Translations under genes and position numbers: made by a program
Source: Fibrobacterota bacterium
GTDB lineage: Bacteria > Fibrobacterota > Fibrobacteria > UBA11236
Assembly: GCA_023249635.1 (NCBI GenBank)
Contig: JAHFCH010000001.1
Coordinates: 1 to 64,000 of the forward strand
DNA length: 64,000 nt
Direction: 5' to 3'
Shown: one piece after another, positions 46,810 to 58,457 of the stretch
How the letters are laid out: each line of letters begins with the position of its first letter
Position numbering within the stretch: the first letter of the stretch is position 1
Notes under the pieces: model-generated
Database searches by the model: none
The model's input: only the letters and a program-made list of their open reading frames with translations
Told to the model about the DNA's origin: nothing

Positions 46810-49083
46810 TTAGCGGAGGCGCTTATCGGTGAACACGATGCCCTGGGAGGCCTGCCTGGCCTTGCCCAACAGAGCGGCGTCGTTGCCCATCACGCCGACC
46901 ACGCGGCCGGTGATATCGTAAATCTTGAGTCCCGGGACGAAGGCGCGCGTTTCACCGCGGGCCAGAGGCTTGATCATGATCCCGACGCTGGCATCGTTCT
47001 CCCAGCGTTGGTTGGCCGGGACCAATTCGTTCAGGTGCCCGATGATGTATTTGGGAGTGCGGTCGGAATTGTACATGCCCCAATGGGCGCCCACGGCGCC
47101 TTCGTTACCCTTCCACTTCTCGTCCACATTGGTGAAGAAGTAGTAGTCCAGGCCTTCCTTCTTGGCCCAGGCATGCAGGTCATGCAGGTACTTGGCTTGG
47201 TTCTGCTCGCTGCCCACCGCCGCTCCCGTGGTGGCTGCCGTAGGCCAGCCGGTCTCGCCCAGCACCTGGCGCTTGCCCGGGAACTTGGCGATACGCGCCT
47301 TCATCTGCAGGTAGACGTTGTAGGCGTGGCTGCCGGCATTGTCGATGGACTTCTGCTCCCACCAGGGATGCACGTGCCAGGTCACCTGGTCCACGGCCGC
47401 GGGCAGCGCGTCGCTGGCGGCGAGCCAATCGGGATACGATTCGCCCGTGGTCACGATGATGTTGGCGGGCATGGCGGCCTTGACCTGCTTGATGTAGCGC
47501 ACCAGCTTGGCCTCGGCGGCGGCCACATCCTTATGGGCCTGGCGTACGCGCAACAAGAACTCGTTGCCCACGATGATGGTCTTTATGGAGGGATGGTTCT
47601 CCTTCACGATTCCGATGGCTTCCGTGATGGATTGCTGGTTCTGGCCTTCGCCGTAGGTATCATCTAGCCAGATGCCCATGTGGATCTTCATGCCCAATTG
47701 GTCGCACATGCCGGGGAGCGAGCTGCCATGGGTGGCGAGTCCCGAACCGTAAGTGCGGATTTCCCGGGTGAAGGGTTTGATCAGTTCCAGATCCGCCTTG
47801 CACTGGGCCGCCGAGGGCTCGGCGCCGCCGGGTGCCTGGCCGTCATGGTAGGCCGTGAATGGGATGCAGCGGAAGATGGTGGGATCCTTGAGGGTGCCGT
47901 TGTTGCCGCCCTTGGTGGTATCGCCGATGGTGAAGATGCGATCGGACTGGTCGGCGCCCGAACCGTCGGGAAGGGAGATGCGCACCAGGCAATCGGTGGA
48001 ACGCGCGGTGGGAACGGTCCAGGCATAAGTGCCCGCGCCGCCCGCGTCCGCCGCCGCGGTGATGGCGGTCCAGCTGGCGCCATTGTTGGTGGAGAAGTCG
48101 AGCTTCTTGGCGCCGAGCAGCTTGCCGCCCTGCCACTTGATGGTGGCGGTCTGGCCCGGGGTCAGCGAATCGCCGCCGTTGGGGGCGACCACGCGGAAAG
48201 CGAAAGCGCTGGCTTCGGCAGTGCCGCCGTAATAGCCCAGATCCACCCGGCCGCCGTTAGGCATGGGCTCGGCGGAGAAATCGGAGGCGGGATCGCCCGC
48301 GTTGATGGCGGAGGAGTAGGGCCACAGATGGTAATCCAGATTGGGGATATCCTTCACGTCGGGATCGATGCCGGTGAGGATACCGACTTCTCCCGCGCCG
48401 CTACCGACGCGCGTGCCCGTGATGAGGGAATAGCGCACCTTGACCGTGGCCGAAGTCGCCGCCGTGCCGCCGGCGGTCTTGATGGCCAGACCGGTGTTGA
48501 TGGGCTTATTCTCGAAACCGAGGATGGAATTGCTGATATCGATGTCGGCCGCGTCGGCGCCGGCGCCGATGAGCACGGAGAAGTCATCCGCGCCGCCGAA
48601 CAGGCGCGATTTGGCGCCGATGGTGCAATAGGACATGGCCACCTTGGCTCCCGCCCCGGTGATGCTCACGCCATTGGTGCCGAAGTCCTGGATCTGGATA
48701 TGGGTCAACTTGACATTGCCGCCCTGGATCCAGATGGCGCTGGTGGCGTCGTTCAGCATCACCACATATTCCAGATCATGCTGGGTCGAAGCGTTGTTGA
48801 GGATGAGGGGAACGTCGAAGATGTCGATGTAGGCGGCCAAAGTGCCGACGGCCTTCACGGGTCCGGTTGCGGTGATGCTGAACTTACCGCCCACCGAACG
48901 GATGTGGGTGCCCGGAGCGACATTCAGGGTCACTCCCGCCGGAACCGTTACGTTGCCGGTGACTTCCACGCTCCCGGTCAGGTTGGCGGTGGCGGCGGTG
49001 AGTTCCCCCGTGATGGGGAATGCCGCCGAAGCGAGCAAACCCGTGAATGCGGATACGGTCAGCGCACGCGAGAACCAGTTCAT
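46810..49083 (-). CDS. Secreted GH17-like beta-1,3-glucanase with N-terminal beta-helix
   Basis: The 757-residue protein has a signal peptide ending near ASAAF. A right-handed beta-helix (about 25-290, repeated VEVTGNVTV, VKLTHIQIQDFGTNGVSITG) is followed by an Ig-like domain (293-390), a GH17-like barrel (about 400-690) and a tail (LKIYDITGRVVGVMG). The catalytic acid is Glu508 in IIVGNE and the nucleophile Glu610 in VLGETGWPT, both as in GH17. The enzyme would cut beta-1,3-glucan such as laminarin, callose or fungal glucan. Joining a beta-helix to GH17 is unusual and may help hold fibrous substrate. AAGGGG precedes the ATG. Confidence 0.85.
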   Translation of the reverse strand: MNWFSRALTVSAFTGLLASAAFPITGELTAATANLTGSVEVTGNVTVPAGVTLNVAPGTHIRSVGGKFSITATGPVKAVGTLAAYIDIFDVPLILNNASTQHDLEYVVMLNDATSAIWIQGGNVKLTHIQIQDFGTNGVSITGAGAKVAMSYCTIGAKSRLFGGADDFSVLIGAGADAADIDISNSILGFENKPINTGLAIKTAGGTAATSATVKVRYSLITGTRVGSGAGEVGILTGIDPDVKDIPNLDYHLWPYSSAINAGDPASDFSAEPMPNGGRVDLGYYGGTAEASAFAFRVVAPNGGDSLTPGQTATIKWQGGKLLGAKKLDFSTNNGASWTAITAAADAGGAGTYAWTVPTARSTDCLVRISLPDGSGADQSDRIFTIGDTTKGGNNGTLKDPTIFRCIPFTAYHDGQAPGGAEPSAAQCKADLELIKPFTREIRTYGSGLATHGSSLPGMCDQLGMKIHMGIWLDDTYGEGQNQQSITEAIGIVKENHPSIKTIIVGNEFLLRVRQAHKDVAAAEAKLVRYIKQVKAAMPANIIVTTGESYPDWLAASDALPAAVDQVTWHVHPWWEQKSIDNAGSHAYNVYLQMKARIAKFPGKRQVLGETGWPTAATTGAAVGSEQNQAKYLHDLHAWAKKEGLDYYFFTNVDEKWKGNEGAVGAHWGMYNSDRTPKYIIGHLNELVPANQRWENDASVGIMIKPLARGETRAFVPGLKIYDITGRVVGVMGNDAALLGKARQASQGIVFTDKRLR

Positions 49084-49627: not shown

Positions 49628-50116
49628 ATGAAGCATGTTTCCCAGAAAGGCTTCTCGCTGCTTGAGATGATCGGCGTGATCGTGATTTTGGGATTAATCC
49701 TGGCCGGTGCGCGCGCGCCCATGTCCCGGTTTACCCGCACTTTGGAACAGAAGCATGCGGTAACGGGATTGCGCAAGGTTCTGCTGACCGCCCGCAGCAA
49801 GGCCATGGCCAACCCTTCGATACACTGCGGCGTCTGGTTCGATCCCGCTTCCATTCCACCCCAAGCGGTCCTGTTCCTGGATACCTTCTCCCCGGCCAAC
49901 TATGCGTACGATCCGGGCAAGGACAAAGCCTACCTCTCCCCCTTCGTCATGCCCAGGGGCGCGGCCCTCACGGTTCCCGATCCCTATCCCGTCACGGTCA
50001 TCTTCCGTGGGGACGGTTCGGCATACATGAGCGGTCGCGTACTGCTCGCGAACTCCGATCTCAGCGATACCCTGGAGGTGCTGGCGAGCACCGGCCGCAT
50101 CCGGAGCACCCGCTGA
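49628..50116 (+). CDS. GspH/FimT-like pseudopilin
   Basis: The 162-residue protein has a class III leader: KHVSQKG then FSLLEMIGVIVILGLILAG, with Gly8 at the cleavage site and Glu13 (+5 of the mature chain). A GspH/FimT-like globular domain follows, with the typical LRKVLLTARSKAMANPS helix. The ATG at 49628 was chosen because it places the leader correctly. It is the first gene of a four-gene set whose order matches GspH-I-J-K, the minor pseudopilins that build the tip of type II secretion or type IV pilus fibres. Its stop lies within the presumed start region of the next gene. Confidence 0.85.
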   Translation: MKHVSQKGFSLLEMIGVIVILGLILAGARAPMSRFTRTLEQKHAVTGLRKVLLTARSKAMANPSIHCGVWFDPASIPPQAVLFLDTFSPANYAYDPGKDKAYLSPFVMPRGAALTVPDPYPVTVIFRGDGSAYMSGRVLLANSDLSDTLEVLASTGRIRSTR

Positions 50117-50529
50117 TCGCGCTCGCGCCTCGTCGCCGGGGGCAGTCGGGATGGAGCCTGCTGGAGCTGCTGATCGCGATCGTGGTGTTGGGAATGGGCG
50201 TAATGGTATTCATGCGCATGCAAACGCGTTCTTCCAGCATCTCGCGCGCCAACGCCAACATGCAACGGGCGGCCCAACTGATCGGCAAGCACGTGGAATC
50301 CATGCGGGTGTCCGTCGCGCGCGATCCCACCGCCTGGCCGCCCCGGGACACCATGTTCACGGATCCCGATTTCGCCGACCTCAAGCTCAAACGCGTAGTG
50401 GCCGGGGCCATTTCGCCTAAGGACGGCGCCGTGCTGGCCACGGTGCGGCGGATCGATTTGACCGTATCCTGGGGAATTCATCGACTCGACACCATGAAAG
50501 TGACGACCTATGTTTCGCGCACTTTCTAA
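50113..50529 (+). CDS. GspI/PilV-like pseudopilin, probable CTG start
   Basis: The leader RRRGQSG then WSLLELLIAIVVLGMGVMVF shows Gly13 at the cleavage site and Glu18 at +5, so the frame must extend upstream of the first GTG (50182), which lies inside the hydrophobic helix. In that frame there is no ATG, GTG or TTG. The only near-start is CTG at 50113, overlapping the previous TGA as CTGA. Coupled initiation at CTG is likely, or a sequence error hides the start. The mature domain is short (about 125 residues) with KLKRVVAGAIS and a closing VTTYVSRTF. It is the second gene of the H-I-J-K set and overlaps the third by 20 bases. Confidence 0.75.
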   Translation: MIALAPRRRGQSGWSLLELLIAIVVLGMGVMVFMRMQTRSSSISRANANMQRAAQLIGKHVESMRVSVARDPTAWPPRDTMFTDPDFADLKLKRVVAGAISPKDGAVLATVRRIDLTVSWGIHRLDTMKVTTYVSRTF

Positions 50530-51319
50530 ACGGGGCAAAGGCTCCGCCGGCTTCACCCTGATCGAGGTGACCATCGGCTTGGCGGTTTCCGGCGTGCTGG
50601 TGCTGGTGATAACCCGCTTCTTCAACGATTCCCATCGCGCCTATAACCTGCAGGAGCGGCTTTCGGATCGGGACCAGAACGCGCAATTCGTCCTGAAGCG
50701 CATGGAAGAGCGCATCATGGAAGCGGGAGCCAACCTGCCCGAAACGGGCTGGCCGGTTATCGTTCCCGGGCCGGACGCGTTGAGCGGATTCAAGCTGGCG
50801 CTCAATCCGCGCGGCGGGACGCAGACTTTCTATTCGGACATGGCCGCGTCGTCGGAAATCCCCGTGGACGACGGGACTTCTTTCATCGGCGCGTCCTCCG
50901 TGCTTGTCCTACGCAACGACAAGAGCCAACCCGTGCAAAAGATCGCCATCGCCACAGGCTACCATTGGGGCGGATATTCCAAAGGCATCAAGGCGGGCGG
51001 TGCGGGAGTGGACACGATTCGCTTGGCCCTACCCTTGACCCTCAAGGCCGGCGACGCCATCTATGCCTATGCCACGGAAGATTACTCGGTATTGGGCACG
51101 GACGTTTCCGTGGGCGGCATGGTCCTGGCAGAGGACATCGAGGCCGTGACCCTGGGATTCTACGATTCCCTGGGCGCGGCCACGAGCGACTGGAACAGCA
51201 TGCACGCGGCCCGCCTCTCGGTTACCGCGCGCACCCGCCAACCCGATCCCGGATACAAAGGCGACGGCTATCGGCGCGTGACCCTCAATTCCGAAGTACG
51301 CCTTAGGAATCGGCCCTGA
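50510..51319 (+). CDS. GspJ/PilW-like pseudopilin
   Basis: The 269-residue protein has the leader KRGKGSAG then FTLIEVTIGLAVSGVLVLVI, with Gly14 at the cleavage site and Glu19 at +5. The long PilW/GspJ-type domain has RDQNAQFVLKRMEERIMEAG just after the helix, SVLVLRNDKSQPVQ, GVDTIRLALPLTLKAG and a closing RRVTLNSEVRLRNRP. PilW/GspJ proteins sit near the fibre tip with I and K. The ATG overlaps the end of the second gene, and the stop is one base before the fourth gene's ATG, so the operon is tightly coupled. Confidence 0.87.
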   Translation: MFRALSKRGKGSAGFTLIEVTIGLAVSGVLVLVITRFFNDSHRAYNLQERLSDRDQNAQFVLKRMEERIMEAGANLPETGWPVIVPGPDALSGFKLALNPRGGTQTFYSDMAASSEIPVDDGTSFIGASSVLVLRNDKSQPVQKIAIATGYHWGGYSKGIKAGGAGVDTIRLALPLTLKAGDAIYAYATEDYSVLGTDVSVGGMVLAEDIEAVTLGFYDSLGAATSDWNSMHAARLSVTARTRQPDPGYKGDGYRRVTLNSEVRLRNRP

Positions 51320-51320
51320 G

Positions 51321-53120
51321 ATGGACTTGACGACAATGCCAGGCAGGGACGGAAAACGCGGCTTCATCCTGGTCTTCACCATGCTGATGATCCTCGCCAT
51401 CTCGGCCATGGGCGTAGCCATGATGTTCGACGGCAAGCAAAATACGGTATCTTCCCTGAATTACATGCACAAGGTGCAATCCTTCTACGCTTCCGACGGC
51501 ATGATGACGCTGTTGGGGGACGAAGTGCTGAACGGGCGGGACACGCTCTACACCCGGGCGGGAGCCCGCGGGCATATTACCGGCAAGCTTTGGAAGACCG
51601 ACGGGCATTTTGGCGCCGCTACCTTACGCGACAAGGCGCGCTCGGGAGCGCTTCCGTATCCCAAGCGGATCCAGTCCAGTTCGCTCGGATCCTTTTTCCA
51701 TGATAAGGGCTATAACGGCGACCTGTATTATAAGGAGGACTACGGTATCCTCTGGAACGGCTACCTGTATCCGCCCACCACCGGGAGCTACACCTTCTAC
51801 GTACGCAGCGACGACGAATGCGAATTCTTCCTGAGCGCCGACGACTCCAAGGGAAACCTTTCCGACCGGCCCTTGGCTTTCAACTACGGGAACATGAGCA
51901 CGGGATATTGGCCCTCCCAGGAAAACCACGATACCGGACCCGAATTCAAGACCATCTCCAAGCCGGTGATGCTCAAGGGCGGCAAACGCTACTACTTCGA
52001 GTTCTACCATAAGGAGAACGGCGGAAACGATTACGGTCAGGTGGGATGGACCGGGCCCGATTGGATTAGCGAAAAGCCGATCCCGGGCGCGCGCATGTCC
52101 CCGTTCGATTCAACCTACCAGGAGACGCCCGAGGACACGGTCAACATCGCGGGAACCTCGGTGCGCTACAGCGTGGAAGGCCTGGGAACCGACGTATTCT
52201 CCCTCTTCACCGAAGGTTTCCTGCCCATGGCGGGCAGCGATACCCTGTTCCGCATCCCCTTGCACCAGCGCGTATCCATGAAGGGCGCCAGCGGCGCGCC
52301 CCCCGATACCATGTGGTCCAAGGTCATCTTCCACGATTTCCACAGCGACAAGAGCAACCCCGAATTCGAAAGCCCCACCTGGGGCGTTGGCGGCGCCCAT
52401 CCCCACCTGAATATGCTCCGTCCGGATACCATGCGGTTTACCAACGAAGACGCGTCCTATTTCGGCCTGGACAGCATCGGCAAGCCTTGGGGCACCGCCA
52501 ACAACGACAGCGTTTTCTTCAGTTGCGCCGTGGATCGCTGGTTCATGCCCTGGGTCAAGGATGCGGCCATCAATCATTTGGTTCCCCGCGACCGCGACGA
52601 TGATAGGAACGATTGCACTCCCATCGTCACGGCCAACGACACCCTGTTCAAGAGCGTGCGCGTTTACGATTCCATACCCTTTACCCACCGCATCGACGTA
52701 GGCAGCAATGCCTACTCGTTCTCGCGCGAAGGCAGCACCGATTCGGGGTTCTTCTGGATCGACAACAAGGGATTCGGCAAAGAAGGCAAGGATCACAACT
52801 ATTCCTTCTGCATGGAGCTGCATGCGTCCTTCGAATTGCTTCCGGGCATGGAATTCGTCTTCAAGGGCGACGATGACGTTTGGATGTTCATCGATCATAA
52901 ACTGGTGATGGATCTGGGCGGACTCCATGTCTCCAATGATTTCACCACCTATTTCGACGATCTGGGCCTGGCCTATTACCAGACCTATCCCTTGGACTTT
53001 TTCTACTGCGAACGCCAGACCACGGCCTCGGACATCAAGATCGTCACCAACGTCCCCCTCGGCCACACGCGCGGCAAACTCTCCAGGAACTGGAAGCGGG
53101 ACTATGGGGCTTTGGATTAA
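51321..53120 (+). CDS. PilX/GspK-like pilin fused to PA14 and fibro-slime domains (candidate pilus-tip adhesin)
   Basis: The 599-residue protein occupies the GspK/PilX position. The leader GRDGKRG then FILVFTMLMILAISAMGVAM is PilX-like. Position +5 is Phe, not Glu; GspK, the tip subunit, also lacks Glu5. SFYASDGMMTLLGDEVLNGR continues as in PilX. A PA14 domain follows (about 110-260: GILWNGYLYPPTTGSYTFYV, SDDECEFFL, GGKRYYFEFYHKENGG), then a fibro-slime domain (about 325-590: NYSFCMELHASFELLPGMEF, FKGDDDVWMFIDHKLVMDLG, LDFFYCERQTTASDIKI). PA14 domains bind carbohydrate, and fibro-slime domains occur on Fibrobacter surface proteins. A sugar-binding pilus tip is the natural reading, not yet shown. 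Confidence 0.88.
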   Translation: MDLTTMPGRDGKRGFILVFTMLMILAISAMGVAMMFDGKQNTVSSLNYMHKVQSFYASDGMMTLLGDEVLNGRDTLYTRAGARGHITGKLWKTDGHFGAATLRDKARSGALPYPKRIQSSSLGSFFHDKGYNGDLYYKEDYGILWNGYLYPPTTGSYTFYVRSDDECEFFLSADDSKGNLSDRPLAFNYGNMSTGYWPSQENHDTGPEFKTISKPVMLKGGKRYYFEFYHKENGGNDYGQVGWTGPDWISEKPIPGARMSPFDSTYQETPEDTVNIAGTSVRYSVEGLGTDVFSLFTEGFLPMAGSDTLFRIPLHQRVSMKGASGAPPDTMWSKVIFHDFHSDKSNPEFESPTWGVGGAHPHLNMLRPDTMRFTNEDASYFGLDSIGKPWGTANNDSVFFSCAVDRWFMPWVKDAAINHLVPRDRDDDRNDCTPIVTANDTLFKSVRVYDSIPFTHRIDVGSNAYSFSREGSTDSGFFWIDNKGFGKEGKDHNYSFCMELHASFELLPGMEFVFKGDDDVWMFIDHKLVMDLGGLHVSNDFTTYFDDLGLAYYQTYPLDFFYCERQTTASDIKIVTNVPLGHTRGKLSRNWKRDYGALD

Positions 53121-53210: not shown

Positions 53211-53343
53211 CTCGATACCGCCCCGCCCGCGCGCCCCACCGACACTCCCCGGCTAATATTCCACGACGGCGATGGTGTTATCGCCCGTGCTACCCCCTCC
53301 GACGGGGGCGCGCGTCATGGCCCGCTGGGCCACGGGAGGTCGG

Positions 53344-54708
53344 ATGTCTAAGCGGATTTTGGTTGCGGGTACCTTGGCGTTGCTTACTGCGGCCGGCGCG
53401 GCGCGGGCCGAAGATGTAAAGGCCGAGTTGAAGCCGGGCGAGACACAGTTCAAGTCCTTCTTCGACGCGGGTCAAATCGTCAAGGGCCTGGACGGTGAGA
53501 CCGGCAAGGAATACAAGATGCAGGCCTTCCGCCGCACCCTGGTGCTTATCACCAAGAGCGGGAAGCTGAGCGAAAAGATCGACGTCAAGATGGGCATGCT
53601 GGGCGCCTTTTTCTTCGTGCTGCCCGAGCAGGATGGCGCGCCCCACACCCGCCTTCCCAAGTTCGTATTGTTCCCGACCAATGCCGAACTGATTTGGCAC
53701 ATGGGGGATGCCGCGGCGCCCCTTGCCGATCTGGAAGTAGGCGCATTCCAGTACAAGTACAACCCCGAAGCGTCCAACCTGGGCGAGTACCTATTGCGTT
53801 CCGGCACCTATCCCGGCTACCTGCTCACCGGCGGGTTCAATATGATCAATAGCGCCAATTATCAGGTCTACGGAGCCGGCTTGCATGTGAACCTGATGGA
53901 AGGCAAGTTCAAGACCGATTTCCTGCTGCCCATGGAAAACATGATGCCCCCCATGCACAGCATCTCCCCCACCGTGGTCACTTCCTTCAAGGGCCTGCCC
54001 GGAATCGACCTGGGCGCGGGCGTCTGCTTCAACCATCTGATCTCGGCCAAGCCCAGCAAGGAAGCCTTCGCCGCCCACGATCCCAACGCCAGCCCCGACT
54101 ATATGCGGTGGCCCACGTCCATCATCAAGAGCGCGGATTCGACCACGGTGGTGCGCGATACCACCCAATTCTACACCTTTCAGGGCACCAAGCTCATGGG
54201 CCGACTCACCCTGGATCCCAAGGAATGGATGGACGGGACCGATGCATTCAAGCCTGCTGATCTAAAGCTGTTCGCGGAAGCCGCCGTCCTGGGCGTCAAG
54301 GATTACCCCTTCTACTATCCCGACATCTCGCGCCGCATCCCCGTCATGTTCGGAATGAACCTGCCCACCTTCGGCCTGCTCGATCTGCTCTCGGTGCAGG
54401 GCGAATATTTCAATGCGCTATGGCAGAACAATATCGATGGCGTCTTCGAATTCCAGCGCCCCGTGCCCTACCACAAGGACTACGACCCGGTGAACGGCCC
54501 CGAGACCGTAGCCAAAGAGGTCAAGGATGACCGGATCCATTGGTCCGTGCTCGCCAAGCGCGAATTGCTGAAAGGCGCCAACCTGTACCTGCAGGTGGCG
54601 AGCGATCATCTACGCACCTACGATTACAATTTCAAGCCGATCAAAACGCCCATCACGTCCCGTCCGGGCGATTGGTATTACCTGTTCCGGCTGGAATTGG
54701 CGATCTGA
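53344..54708 (+). CDS. Outer-membrane beta-barrel protein, porin-like paralogue 5
   Basis: The 454-residue protein starts at the ATG at 53344 after GGGAGG; the signal peptide ends near ARAED. Signatures are FQYKYNPEASNLGEYLLRSG, then RRIPVMFGMNLPTFGLLDLL, and a closing GDWYYLFRLELAI. It ends in Ile, not Phe, the only one of the five to do so. It is closest to the barrel at 16424 (both have AEDxK starts, LGEYL and WYY-LRLE ends). It precedes a CBM6-like gene by 101 bp. Channel function is inferred. Confidence 0.75.
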   Translation: MSKRILVAGTLALLTAAGAARAEDVKAELKPGETQFKSFFDAGQIVKGLDGETGKEYKMQAFRRTLVLITKSGKLSEKIDVKMGMLGAFFFVLPEQDGAPHTRLPKFVLFPTNAELIWHMGDAAAPLADLEVGAFQYKYNPEASNLGEYLLRSGTYPGYLLTGGFNMINSANYQVYGAGLHVNLMEGKFKTDFLLPMENMMPPMHSISPTVVTSFKGLPGIDLGAGVCFNHLISAKPSKEAFAAHDPNASPDYMRWPTSIIKSADSTTVVRDTTQFYTFQGTKLMGRLTLDPKEWMDGTDAFKPADLKLFAEAAVLGVKDYPFYYPDISRRIPVMFGMNLPTFGLLDLLSVQGEYFNALWQNNIDGVFEFQRPVPYHKDYDPVNGPETVAKEVKDDRIHWSVLAKRELLKGANLYLQVASDHLRTYDYNFKPIKTPITSRPGDWYYLFRLELAI

Positions 54709-54809: not shown

Positions 54810-55694
54810 ATGCGCCCTTCTACCACCTTTCCCGGGGCCCAAGGCCTTCCGGTAGCTTCCACGTTACTGCTGGCCGCCCTGGCGGCCGCCATCCCCACCC
54901 TTGCCGACATACCCGTCGGGTATAAGGGAACCCCGTACCTGGGCACTCCCTGGCCCATTCCCGGGCGCATCGATTTCGAGAATTACGATCTGGGCGGCCT
55001 CAACATCGCCTGGAAGAGCGACGATAAGGCCGGGCAGGGAGTGGCCCCCGGTTCCACCGCCGCCAACCGCGCCAACGATGGCGAAAAGGAGCATCCCGCC
55101 TTCTGGATCACGAATTCCAACGTGGGCGAGGTGGATAAGTTCGCCGATGGCAGCCTGTACCCCTCCGCAGAAAACCCCAAGTCGATCTACATCGGCGCCG
55201 CCCACGCGACCGACTACAACAACACTACCGTGAACGTCGCCAAGGCCGGCACTTACTGGATCAGCGCCCATTTCGCATCGGAACCGAACCAGATCAAATG
55301 CCACCTGAGCTTCAACGGCATCAACAAGACGCCGGGACTGACCCTGGCCGGCACGAGCAGCTACCACGCCTGGCGCTACTACAAGAACATGGCCAAGGTG
55401 GAATTGGAAGCCGGAGTGCAGGTGATGCAATTCATGCTGGACGCCAACCACCTGAATTGGGACTACGTATACCTCGCGGCCGATTCCAACGGGATTCCCG
55501 CCGGCCTCCCCACCCTAGTGGCGCAACGCGCCCTCCCCGGCCGCGCGCCCGCCATCCGTATCATTCCCGAATCCCGTGGCTCCGCGGCATCGGCAGGAGT
55601 TTCTTTCGGCTTGCCGGGCGGCGCCTTCTGGATCGACGCCTCGGGCCGCAAATCCCCCGCGCTGTCCATCACGGCGCAAACCCCGAAACCCTGA
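54810..55694 (+). CDS. Secreted CBM6-like carbohydrate-binding protein 2
   Basis: The 294-residue protein has a signal peptide ending near PTLA and an AGGAG site. The mature start IPVGYKGTPYLGTPWPIPGR, then DFENYDLGG, matches the CBM6/CBM35 layout (PGRI, E-x-Y-D-x-GG). TTVNVAKAGTYWISAHFASE and LDANHLNWDYVYLAAD complete one sandwich. The C-terminal 70 residues form a short, tail-like sandwich (GGAFWIDASGRKS). No catalytic domain is attached. It is a paralogue of the protein at 45816 and follows an outer-membrane barrel gene. Confidence 0.75.
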   Translation: MRPSTTFPGAQGLPVASTLLLAALAAAIPTLADIPVGYKGTPYLGTPWPIPGRIDFENYDLGGLNIAWKSDDKAGQGVAPGSTAANRANDGEKEHPAFWITNSNVGEVDKFADGSLYPSAENPKSIYIGAAHATDYNNTTVNVAKAGTYWISAHFASEPNQIKCHLSFNGINKTPGLTLAGTSSYHAWRYYKNMAKVELEAGVQVMQFMLDANHLNWDYVYLAADSNGIPAGLPTLVAQRALPGRAPAIRIIPESRGSAASAGVSFGLPGGAFWIDASGRKSPALSITAQTPKP

Positions 55695-55967: not shown

Positions 55968-58457
55968 CTAGCGGTCCCGCTTGCGGATGTAGCCGAAGCG
56001 CGAGACCAGGGTCCGCTCCGTCGGCACCAGGTTGATGGTTTCTCCCTGGGTCCCCTTAACTCCGGCCTGGTCGTGGATTTGCATCACGCCCCGCATGATG
56101 TAGGCCCCCGTGCCCAGGGCCCGGCCGTCATGGGAGACGGGCAGGAAGGTTAGTTGCACGAGCACCGAATCCCCCGCGGCTTCCGTAAGCCTCAGTTTTT
56201 CGAAATCGGCCGGGCCGACGTCGCCTTCGGCCTTGTTCACGAACTGGCCTACGTTATCGTAGAACGACATGGTGTAATTGAAAGGGTACTTGCTCTTGAC
56301 CCGCCAGGTCGGGCCCAGTCCGGAAAGCTTACCGGGCTCCTGCGTCGGCAGCACGTCCCGGATGACGACCGCGCCGCAATTCACGCAGGTATGTTCGCCG
56401 TGGACCACGACCGGGTTGGGTACGGGCCGCAGCGATATCGGTTGGGGGCCGCGGGTGACGCCGTCCACCAGACCCACATTCAGATCGGCATCGGCGCGGG
56501 CCGCATCGCCGGATACGGGCACGTAGAACTTCATCCCGCTCCGGTTGCCCGCCGCATCGGCAACGGGTCGGGCGGGAGCGATGCGCGCGCTGTCCCCGGG
56601 TACGGGATACTTGGACCCCACCGCGAATACGATGCGGTATTTGGAAGGGGATACCGCCACGATGGAAGCGACCTTGATATCCCCGTCGGCGACGATTCCC
56701 TGTCCGCGCTTTATTTCCAGCGGGAAAAGGGCGGCCGCCAAATCCAACGTCACGGCTTCGGAGAATTCGATCTCCACCGACGCGGGAGCATCCGCCTTGG
56801 CGGTAGGGAAGGATTTCACGGATATGATCACGGGACCCACGCTATCGGCCATCAGCACGCCCTGGGCCGCGAATTCGGCTTCGGCGGCCAGATTGGCCAG
56901 CACTTCGGTCGCGAATCCCGTACCCGGCGCGAATCGGGGTAGCGTATAGGTTACGGTACGCCCGGGTCCGGCGGCCTGCCCCGTAGCCGCGACGGGCTTG
57001 GCGCGGTCGAAAGGATCGATGAAGGCCACCACCTTCGGCGGCGTCCCGAAATTCGAATCATACAGGATTACGGCGGTCTCGATGCGGCCGTCGCCATCAC
57101 GATCCAGGTACCAGCCGCGCAGGGCCTTGGCCAGGGTCTTGGCGTACAAGGCGGTCATGATCTCGCTATCGCGGTACCCCGTGGCCGTTCCGATGGCCTT
57201 CAGCGTGGCGTTGGCAGTAATGGTTATCGGTCCGGTATACAGCGGGCTGGCCGCGGTGGGATTCGTCCCGTCCAGGGTATAGTGGATGGCGGCTCCGGGC
57301 GTCGCGTCCGCCAGGGTAACCGGCAGGCTACCCGCGAATCCGCCTCCCGGGGGATTGGCCGTCGGGGTCGCGACTTGGGGTAGATCGGCCACCTTGATCC
57401 ACACCGAATCGCGGATGCCGTCCTTCTCCAACCGCAGCTTATAGGTTCCTGCGGCCAGACCGGTCGGGGAGATGGCCACGGAAGGACCGGCGGGGAGGGC
57501 CGCGCCGTTGAATGTCCAATCGCCCGAAGCCGGAGTCTTGATCTGGGAAGTCAGGTTGTTGCAATCCAGGGTCTGGGTCTGGGTCTCGATCTTAACGGCC
57601 TTGAAGATACGCGAAGCGCCGCCCAGGTTCAGGCTCAGCGTATCGCCGGAAGTGATGACGTTCAGGTTCTCGTCGGCGATGTGCAGACCGGGCGCGGGTG
57701 GCGGGATGATATCGATGCTGGTTGTAACCTGTAGATGCGATTCCGAAGTCTGACGTTCGCAGAAGAAGAAGTCCAGGTTGTAATAATTGTCGCGCAGGAT
57801 TTTCAGCGCGGTACTTTGGGCGTCCAGGTCCACCTGCCCGGCGCCGTTGTTCTGCAAGCCCCCCAGATCCAGCGCCAGATGGTTGTTTATGAACACCCAC
57901 AAATCATCGTCGCCCTTGAAATCGAATACTTCGCCGCCCCGGTACTTGAAGGTGGCATGCATCTCCATGCAGAAATGGAAATTGTGCCCGTTATTGAAAG
58001 TCTCCCCCGCTTTGGCGGGGTTCACCGGATCCGGGGCCTTGATCAGGGCGTGCGGGGGATTGGGATCGGGAACCTGGTCGATGGGGAAAAAGGCGGAGGT
58101 GAAGGCGGCCGGGGTCTGGTAGGTATTCTCCTTGCCCGCGATCTCCTCCAGCGGCAGCTCCAGGCAATAACGGTGGTTCACGGTCGCATCGTCGCGGAAC
58201 CAGGATCGGATATTGTACTTGGGGCAGGGGCTGGTCGCGGATTGGATGGGCTTATGCGCCGAATCCAAGGTGTCGAGCACCATACCCTTCACACCGCCTC
58301 CGTCGACGGCGCAGGTACCGTTAACCGATTCGAAATCGGGATGGGAGGCGTTGAAATCCCGGATGGTGATAGGGATGGATTTGTTCTGGGCTCCTGCTGC
58401 GCCGGCGGCGGCAAGGATGAGGAGCGAGGTTACCAAGGCATTGAAAGGAAGTCGCAT
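55968..58457 (-). CDS. Secreted fibro-slime domain protein with chitobiase-like domain and FlgD-like tail
   Basis: The 829-residue protein starts at the ATG at 58455-58457 after TAGGAG; the signal ends near AAGAQ. The fibro-slime domain (about 30-270) has FRDDATVNHRYCLELPLEEI, FHFCMEMHATFKYRGGEVF, FKGDDDLWVFINNHLALDLG and YNLDFFFCERQTSESHLQV. An Ig-like part follows, then a chitobiase/beta-hexosaminidase C-terminal type domain (IHYTLDGTNPTAASPLYTGP near 430), an Ig-like region and a FlgD-like tail (SFYDNVGQFVNKAEGDVG, GTGAYIMRGV) like those of the VWA proteins. A Cys-x-x-Cys pair (HTCVNCGAV) lies before the tail. It is a surface adhesin candidate. Confidence 0.87.
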   Translation of the reverse strand: MRLPFNALVTSLLILAAAGAAGAQNKSIPITIRDFNASHPDFESVNGTCAVDGGGVKGMVLDTLDSAHKPIQSATSPCPKYNIRSWFRDDATVNHRYCLELPLEEIAGKENTYQTPAAFTSAFFPIDQVPDPNPPHALIKAPDPVNPAKAGETFNNGHNFHFCMEMHATFKYRGGEVFDFKGDDDLWVFINNHLALDLGGLQNNGAGQVDLDAQSTALKILRDNYYNLDFFFCERQTSESHLQVTTSIDIIPPPAPGLHIADENLNVITSGDTLSLNLGGASRIFKAVKIETQTQTLDCNNLTSQIKTPASGDWTFNGAALPAGPSVAISPTGLAAGTYKLRLEKDGIRDSVWIKVADLPQVATPTANPPGGGFAGSLPVTLADATPGAAIHYTLDGTNPTAASPLYTGPITITANATLKAIGTATGYRDSEIMTALYAKTLAKALRGWYLDRDGDGRIETAVILYDSNFGTPPKVVAFIDPFDRAKPVAATGQAAGPGRTVTYTLPRFAPGTGFATEVLANLAAEAEFAAQGVLMADSVGPVIISVKSFPTAKADAPASVEIEFSEAVTLDLAAALFPLEIKRGQGIVADGDIKVASIVAVSPSKYRIVFAVGSKYPVPGDSARIAPARPVADAAGNRSGMKFYVPVSGDAARADADLNVGLVDGVTRGPQPISLRPVPNPVVVHGEHTCVNCGAVVIRDVLPTQEPGKLSGLGPTWRVKSKYPFNYTMSFYDNVGQFVNKAEGDVGPADFEKLRLTEAAGDSVLVQLTFLPVSHDGRALGTGAYIMRGVMQIHDQAGVKGTQGETINLVPTERTLVSRFGYIRKRDR

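Follow-up and report, generated by a model that had tools for sequence, protein, structure and literature searches.

A four-gene operon encoding minor pilins was analyzed in a Fibrobacterota bacterium (assembly GCA_023249635.1), where it occupies positions 49,628 to 53,120 of a 64,000-nucleotide stretch of contig JAHFCH010000001.1, hereafter the window. The draft genome to which the window belongs comprises 6.75 Mb in 341 contigs. A preliminary description of the locus had proposed four coupled genes with the order and leader types of the minor pseudopilins H, I, J and K, the fourth combining a PilX/GspK-like leader that lacks Glu5 with PA14 and fibro-slime domains in place of the usual K domain, and each of these points holds in the analysis given below. 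All four genes lie on the forward strand and each carries a prepilin leader. The features of the operon, with lengths in amino acids (aa), are as follows:

49628..50116, forward strand: H, minor pilin of 162 aa, leader MKHVSQKG^FSLLE, N_methyl match of 26 bits
50103..50115, forward strand: GGAG site resembling a ribosome-binding site, with the CTG start codon of I, which overlaps the stop of H (from the sequence)
50113..50529, forward strand: I, minor pilin of 138 aa, leader ending GQSG^WSLLE, match to PilV TIGR02523
50510..51319, forward strand: J, minor pilin of 269 aa, leader ending GSAG^FTLIE, match to PRK10557
51321..53120, forward strand: K, modular minor pilin of 599 aa, from Pfam and NCBIfam domain matches
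51321..51362, forward strand: K leader peptide, aa 1-14, ending at G^FILVF and without Glu5 (from the sequence)
51363..51554, forward strand: K pilin helix with a PilX-type FYASDG motif, aa 15-78 (BLASTP, PilX_N)
51663..52082, forward strand: K exchangeable module, here PA14, aa 115-254 (Pfam PA14 and GLEYA)
52161..52277, forward strand: K constant segment, aa 281-319, with a conserved V..Y....G....F...T......PL.Q pattern
52326..53060, forward strand: K fibro-slime module, aa 336-580, with its TIGR02148 core at 52794-53054
53091..53117, forward strand: K C-terminal tail WKRDYGALD, found in every complete K

The genes are tightly coupled. The CTG at which I starts (50113-50115) lies inside the H stop (CTGA) and behind the GGAG at 50103-50106, and at the same overlap position relatives start I with ATG or TTG; J in turn overlaps I by 20 bases. 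The leaders of H, I and J all contain Glu5 and pass the Pfam N_methyl cut-off, which identifies these three as type IV prepilins, while K is placed among them by the sequence of its leader and helix. In K the leader, MDLTTMPGRDGKRG^FILVF, is without Glu5, and the PilX-type motif QSFYASDG comes after it; an alternative start for K is the ATG at 51336. Gene order, coupling and a large K without Glu5 together characterize the operon as an H-I-J-K minor pilin set.

The preliminary description had called this set GspHIJK-like, which stands as far as the coupled H-I-J-K minor pilins are concerned and fails as to their closest relatives. Among the homologues in the genus (ten each), H matches PRK10506 (PpdA-type), I matches PilV TIGR02523 (E 4e-10 in the window) and J matches PRK10557 (PpdB-type) in ten of ten cases, but these matches are weak, below the equivalog cut-offs and for I always below the model cut-off. 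GspH matches to H and GspI and GspJ matches to J are sub-threshold, and the GspK family domain T2SSK had no match in this genome, compared with matches in 8 of 14 control genomes. To judge by these profiles, the set appears closest to type IV pilus minor pilins (PpdA-, PilV-, PpdB- and PilX-like) and not to GspHIJK. The PilY1 profile matched 0 of 168 genomes of the phylum and gave no match in the control genomes either.

K fits the definition of a modular pilin, that is, a pilin module with a grafted functional domain. Its PA14 domain (aa 115-254) scores 71 bits against a Pfam cut-off of 24, and Fibro_Slime TIGR02148 (aa 492-578) scores 106 bits against a cut-off of 45. When aligned with the PA14 domain of RsgI (6qdi), a flocculin (4lhk) and Flo5 (2xju), Asp164-Asp165 of K falls on the flocculin DD, PA14 being a putative sugar and calcium binder. 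The segment at aa 281-319 is possibly the pilin beta-sheet. PilX_N reaches only E 0.13 (sub-threshold) in the window; in the best-scoring K homologue (L120) it scores 25.2 bits, just short of its 25.5-bit cut-off.

Conservation of the operon and exchange of the K module

By tblastn and alignment, H-I-J-K was recovered in 10 operons with 11 K genes from five of the six genomes of the genus. Three are in this genome (A, in the window; B, on contig C332; C, on C288), three in G002, two in G005 and one each in G004, where K is tandemly duplicated, and G001, where a contig end interrupts the operon; the ten fall into three paralogous groups. The NTGA overlap of H and I is present in all ten, and the same 20 bases of I-J overlap in 9 of the 9 operons with a resolved J start (all except G001). 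With the complete gene order repeated in 10 operons across the genus, the arrangement is more than chance. Among 11 aligned K proteins G14 and F15 are invariant and none has Glu5. One full-length relative came from a genome-contig scan (L062, in G002); in two scans of viral contigs all matches were to parts of domains, plasmid matches each span about a fifth of K, and phage gave no match. The operon-less genome of the genus, G003, encodes a protein of 585 aa (L155:402-2156) that has a K-like leader, matches nothing in Pfam and lies near a J-like pilin match.

Profiles of I and J were then searched against the 168 genomes of the phylum. Strong matches to both were obtained in families f7, f9 and f11, all outside this class, with full-length I matches at E 8e-15 to 7e-32 and J matches at E 4e-53 to 3e-14 (G073 gave one weaker partial match). 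The fetched loci hold H, I, J and K in that order, some being ended by contig ends. Their nine complete K proteins all carry Fibro_Slime over the cut-off (63 to 124 bits) and all end in W-x-R-[DE]-[YF]-G-x-x-[DEN]. This C-terminal tail is new; every complete K has it, and the listed non-K fibro-slime open reading frames with a readable C-terminus all lack it. The fusions of a PilX leader with fibro-slime that the preliminary description had suggested looking for in Fibrobacterota are found in the genus and in f7, f9 and f11; complete K proteins measure about 580-740 aa.

Two further families gave different pictures. Family f4 (G012, G014) showed weak I matches and a downstream frame without a Pfam match. 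In family f3, taken to be Fibrobacteraceae, no full-length K relative was found; it has H-I-J sets with a giant PilX-like K (>1600 aa), which follows H-I-J-type pilins where read (L153:4118-10000, L154:2-4876 and L157:4069-9999, all running past the fetched stretch). The stretches read contain no Pfam domain beyond PilX_N and no PA14, Fibro_Slime not having been scanned there, and the f3 sets were consequently set apart and not counted as the same operon.

What differs between the K proteins of these lineages is the module between the helix and the constant part. It is PA14 throughout this genus, DUF1349 in f7 (above the cut-off in L112, below it in L114 and L115), GH115_C in f11 (56-60 bits in L117, L118 and L122) and two F5/8C stretches in f9. 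In all-against-all BLASTP comparisons, the helix segments (first ~80 aa) match each other at E 2e-8 to 7e-45 and the constant segments of 12 complete K proteins at E 4e-17 or better (the incomplete L121 is weaker). Between modules of different type, by contrast, no match is better than E 0.1. By these comparisons helix, fibro-slime module and tail are the constant components of K, and what is swapped is the module that separates the helix from fibro-slime. The K protein L113 of f11, whose constant part groups with L118 and L122 (E 3e-129 with L118) and whose module matches f7 (E 4e-12), is on this evidence a module swap inside one family. In a phylogenetic tree, 19 K-type fibro-slime modules fall on one side of a branch and 49 non-K modules on the other (support 98/90), the C-terminal tail lying outside the stretch used for the tree. 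Given this single K clade, the pilin-fibro-slime fusion most likely has a single origin that predates the split of these families, with the module being replaced later.

Free fibro-slime proteins, neighboring genes and pilus machinery

TIGR02148 matches number 24 in this genome, of which three are pilin fusions; the readable N-termini of the other fibro-slime proteins mostly look Sec-type. One of these proteins is encoded close to the operon, whose neighbors in the window are as follows:

46810..49083, reverse strand: GH17-like protein, divergent from the operon (Pfam GH17, E 7e-10)
53272..54708, forward strand: 478-aa protein, unmatched in both Pfam and NCBIfam
54810..55694, forward strand: CBM6-like protein (weak match)
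55968..58457, reverse strand: free fibro-slime protein, not a pilin (TIGR02148, 114 bits), with a Sec-type signal peptide and outside the K clade

The last of these has the N-terminus MRLPFNALVTSLLILAAAGAAGAQ, and its first part corresponds to K aa ~336-580. It also carries CHB_HEX_C and a C-terminal SRFGYIR motif, similar ends (ARFGYVR, AKFGFLR) being present in two more free fibro-slime proteins (L024, L068); this stretch is perhaps a sorting tail. Downstream of the B operon, both here and in G005, there is likewise a free fibro-slime gene (L030:8049-10256 and L068:8323-10119, both on the reverse strand), as there is downstream of the A operon in the window. Pfam PA14 also matches the fibro-slime part of several K proteins, with up to 31 bits, and a fold search with a low-confidence model of the fibro-slime fragment returned PA14 structures among its first ranks. 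Fibro-slime may thus, tentatively, be a divergent PA14-type fold.

A-type operons keep the GH17-like, 478-aa and CBM6-like neighbors in three genomes (the one containing the window, G002 and G005), and three BD-FAE esterase genes lie beside the B operon, here and in G005. From these neighborhoods we infer that the A and B operons would serve different polysaccharide contexts. Elsewhere in the genome, a PilB-PilT-PilC gene cluster is found on contig C27, a second PilT-like gene on C29 and two PilA-type pilins on C10, in addition to secretins and several T2SSE-type ATPases, none of which is linked to H-I-J-K.

Interpretation and alternatives

The reading we favor, with a probability of roughly 0.7, is that H-I-J-K forms the tip complex of minor pilins on a type IV pilus, with K presenting a replaceable glycan-binding module on a fibro-slime carrier that stays fixed. 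Both the tip location and the glycan binding of K are deduced, the latter from its domain families. A prepilin peptidase would cut all four leaders, H, I and J would join K through their helices, and K, lacking Glu5, would cap the tip and start fibre assembly. The PA14 module, and perhaps also the PA14-like fibro-slime module, would bind polysaccharide, so that extension and retraction of the pilus, for which PilB-, PilT- and PilC-type genes occur together in the genome, could reach for the substrate and pull on it. Paralogous operons would then give differently tipped pili for different polysaccharides.

Several observations weigh against this reading. The assembly genes lie on other contigs of the draft genome, unlinked to the H-I-J-K operon, and further gene sets resembling type IV filament systems are present in it, for instance on contig C62. 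For H and J the matches to known families come mainly via the N-termini, and PilX_N stays below its cut-off in every scanned K. Glycan binding is suggested by domain families, among which DUF1349 and GH115_C are not named lectins, and the module of K need not face outward if it is inserted between helix and beta-sheet. Both structure predictions are of low confidence, with a mean predicted local distance difference test score (pLDDT) of 31 for K (5 sequences) and 39 for the fibro-slime fragment (8 sequences). With such scores, claims on complex or fold drawn from these models were dropped beyond the level of a hint. The C62 filament set (G000:C62, L126) itself comprises T2SSF, four pilins, PilM, PilN, a secretin and an ATPase.

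A more specific form of the tip reading is conceivable, and we advance it tentatively, as the less probable version. An ancestral pilin-fibro-slime carrier would have exchanged its module between lineages as a plug-in tip, paralogous operons would load tips matched to the neighboring degradation genes (GH17/CBM6 for A, BD-FAE for B), and the fibro-slime module might dock free fibro-slime proteins.

The most serious competitor, although an unlikely one, places the four proteins at the tip of a short type II-like pseudopilus, where the large K would recognize secreted enzymes or free fibro-slime proteins instead of an external sugar. HIJK sets are common to type IV pili and type II secretion systems and have been reported to be interchangeable for piliation (PMC10191384), and the sub-threshold GspH, GspI and GspJ matches, the T2SSE-type ATPases and secretins, and the free fibro-slime genes near the A and B operons would all accord with such a role. 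The PilV-, PpdA- and PpdB-type matches in ten of ten homologues each and the absence of a T2SSK match here, against the matches in control genomes, argue for the type IV pilus instead, and an external ligand is the better fit for a swapped middle module whose relatives bind carbohydrate. It is considerably less probable still that K is located at the pilus base or along its length, or functions chiefly in assembly, with modules that modulate surface properties and recognize no specific glycan: for modular pilins a location in the filament body is allowed for in PMC8179133, but Glu5 is missing from all 11 aligned K proteins, as is described for the capping subunit in PMC10191384, and K is large and has its module swapped while its scaffold is kept. 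That K is a surface protein outside the fibre, its pilin-like leader merely a membrane anchor, is highly improbable, since it shares its operon with three further pilins across four families, even though most other fibro-slime proteins of the genome are Sec-type and so work without a pilin leader, and those of Fibrobacter succinogenes are extracellular and in the outer membrane (PMC4668043).

Fibro-slime and type IV pili, each implicated in the hold of Fibrobacterota on insoluble polysaccharide, are here united in one protein in part of the phylum. A module swapped on a kept carrier makes tip specificity testable and provides a series of naturally occurring carriers that differ in their modules, and module exchange suggests how a polymer-eating phylum could grip different polysaccharides.

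Comparison with known systems

Fibro-slime and pili have been treated as separate attachment systems (PMC4704652, PMC3079729, PMC4668043), and our literature searches returned no report of a pilin-fibro-slime fusion. Cellulose adhesion has been reported for the fibro-slime family, and the fibro-slime proteins of F. succinogenes (10 paralogues, PMC3079729) belong to the same domain family as K; K differs from them in its prepilin leader, its pilin operon and its C-terminal tail, and the K fibro-slime modules form a clade separate from the sampled non-K modules. The PA14 lectins (flocculins Flo5 and Flo1, Marinomonas PA14 and RsgI PA14) share with K the PA14 family, the Asp-Asp of K aligning with the flocculin DD, whereas the PA14 of K, for which the model is of low confidence, is carried on a type IV pilin.

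Among pilus systems, the type IVa pilus PilHIJK or FimU-PilV-PilW-PilX sets with PilC/PilY1 resemble the operon in gene order, leaders, the closest families of H, I and J and a K without Glu5; an HIJK tip capped by a subunit lacking Glu5 is known elsewhere (PMC10191384). What sets the present K apart from these tip complexes is its length of about 580-740 aa with modules of sugar-binding type. GspHIJK shares the four-gene order and a large K without Glu5, and GspK too carries an extra domain (PMC8179133), but T2SSK is not found in this genome and the extra modules of K are PA14-type and fibro-slime. PA14 is among the 15 commonest architectures of modular pilins (PMC8179133). In Streptococcus sanguinis the modular type IV pilins PilB and PilC (PMC8179133, PMC9934059) likewise join a pilin N-terminus to a bulky adhesive module (vWA, lectin). 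In contrast to these, the modular pilin described here occupies the K position in a complete H-I-J-K set, and its exchangeable module precedes a constant fibro-slime part and tail, the exchange taking place within one conserved operon.

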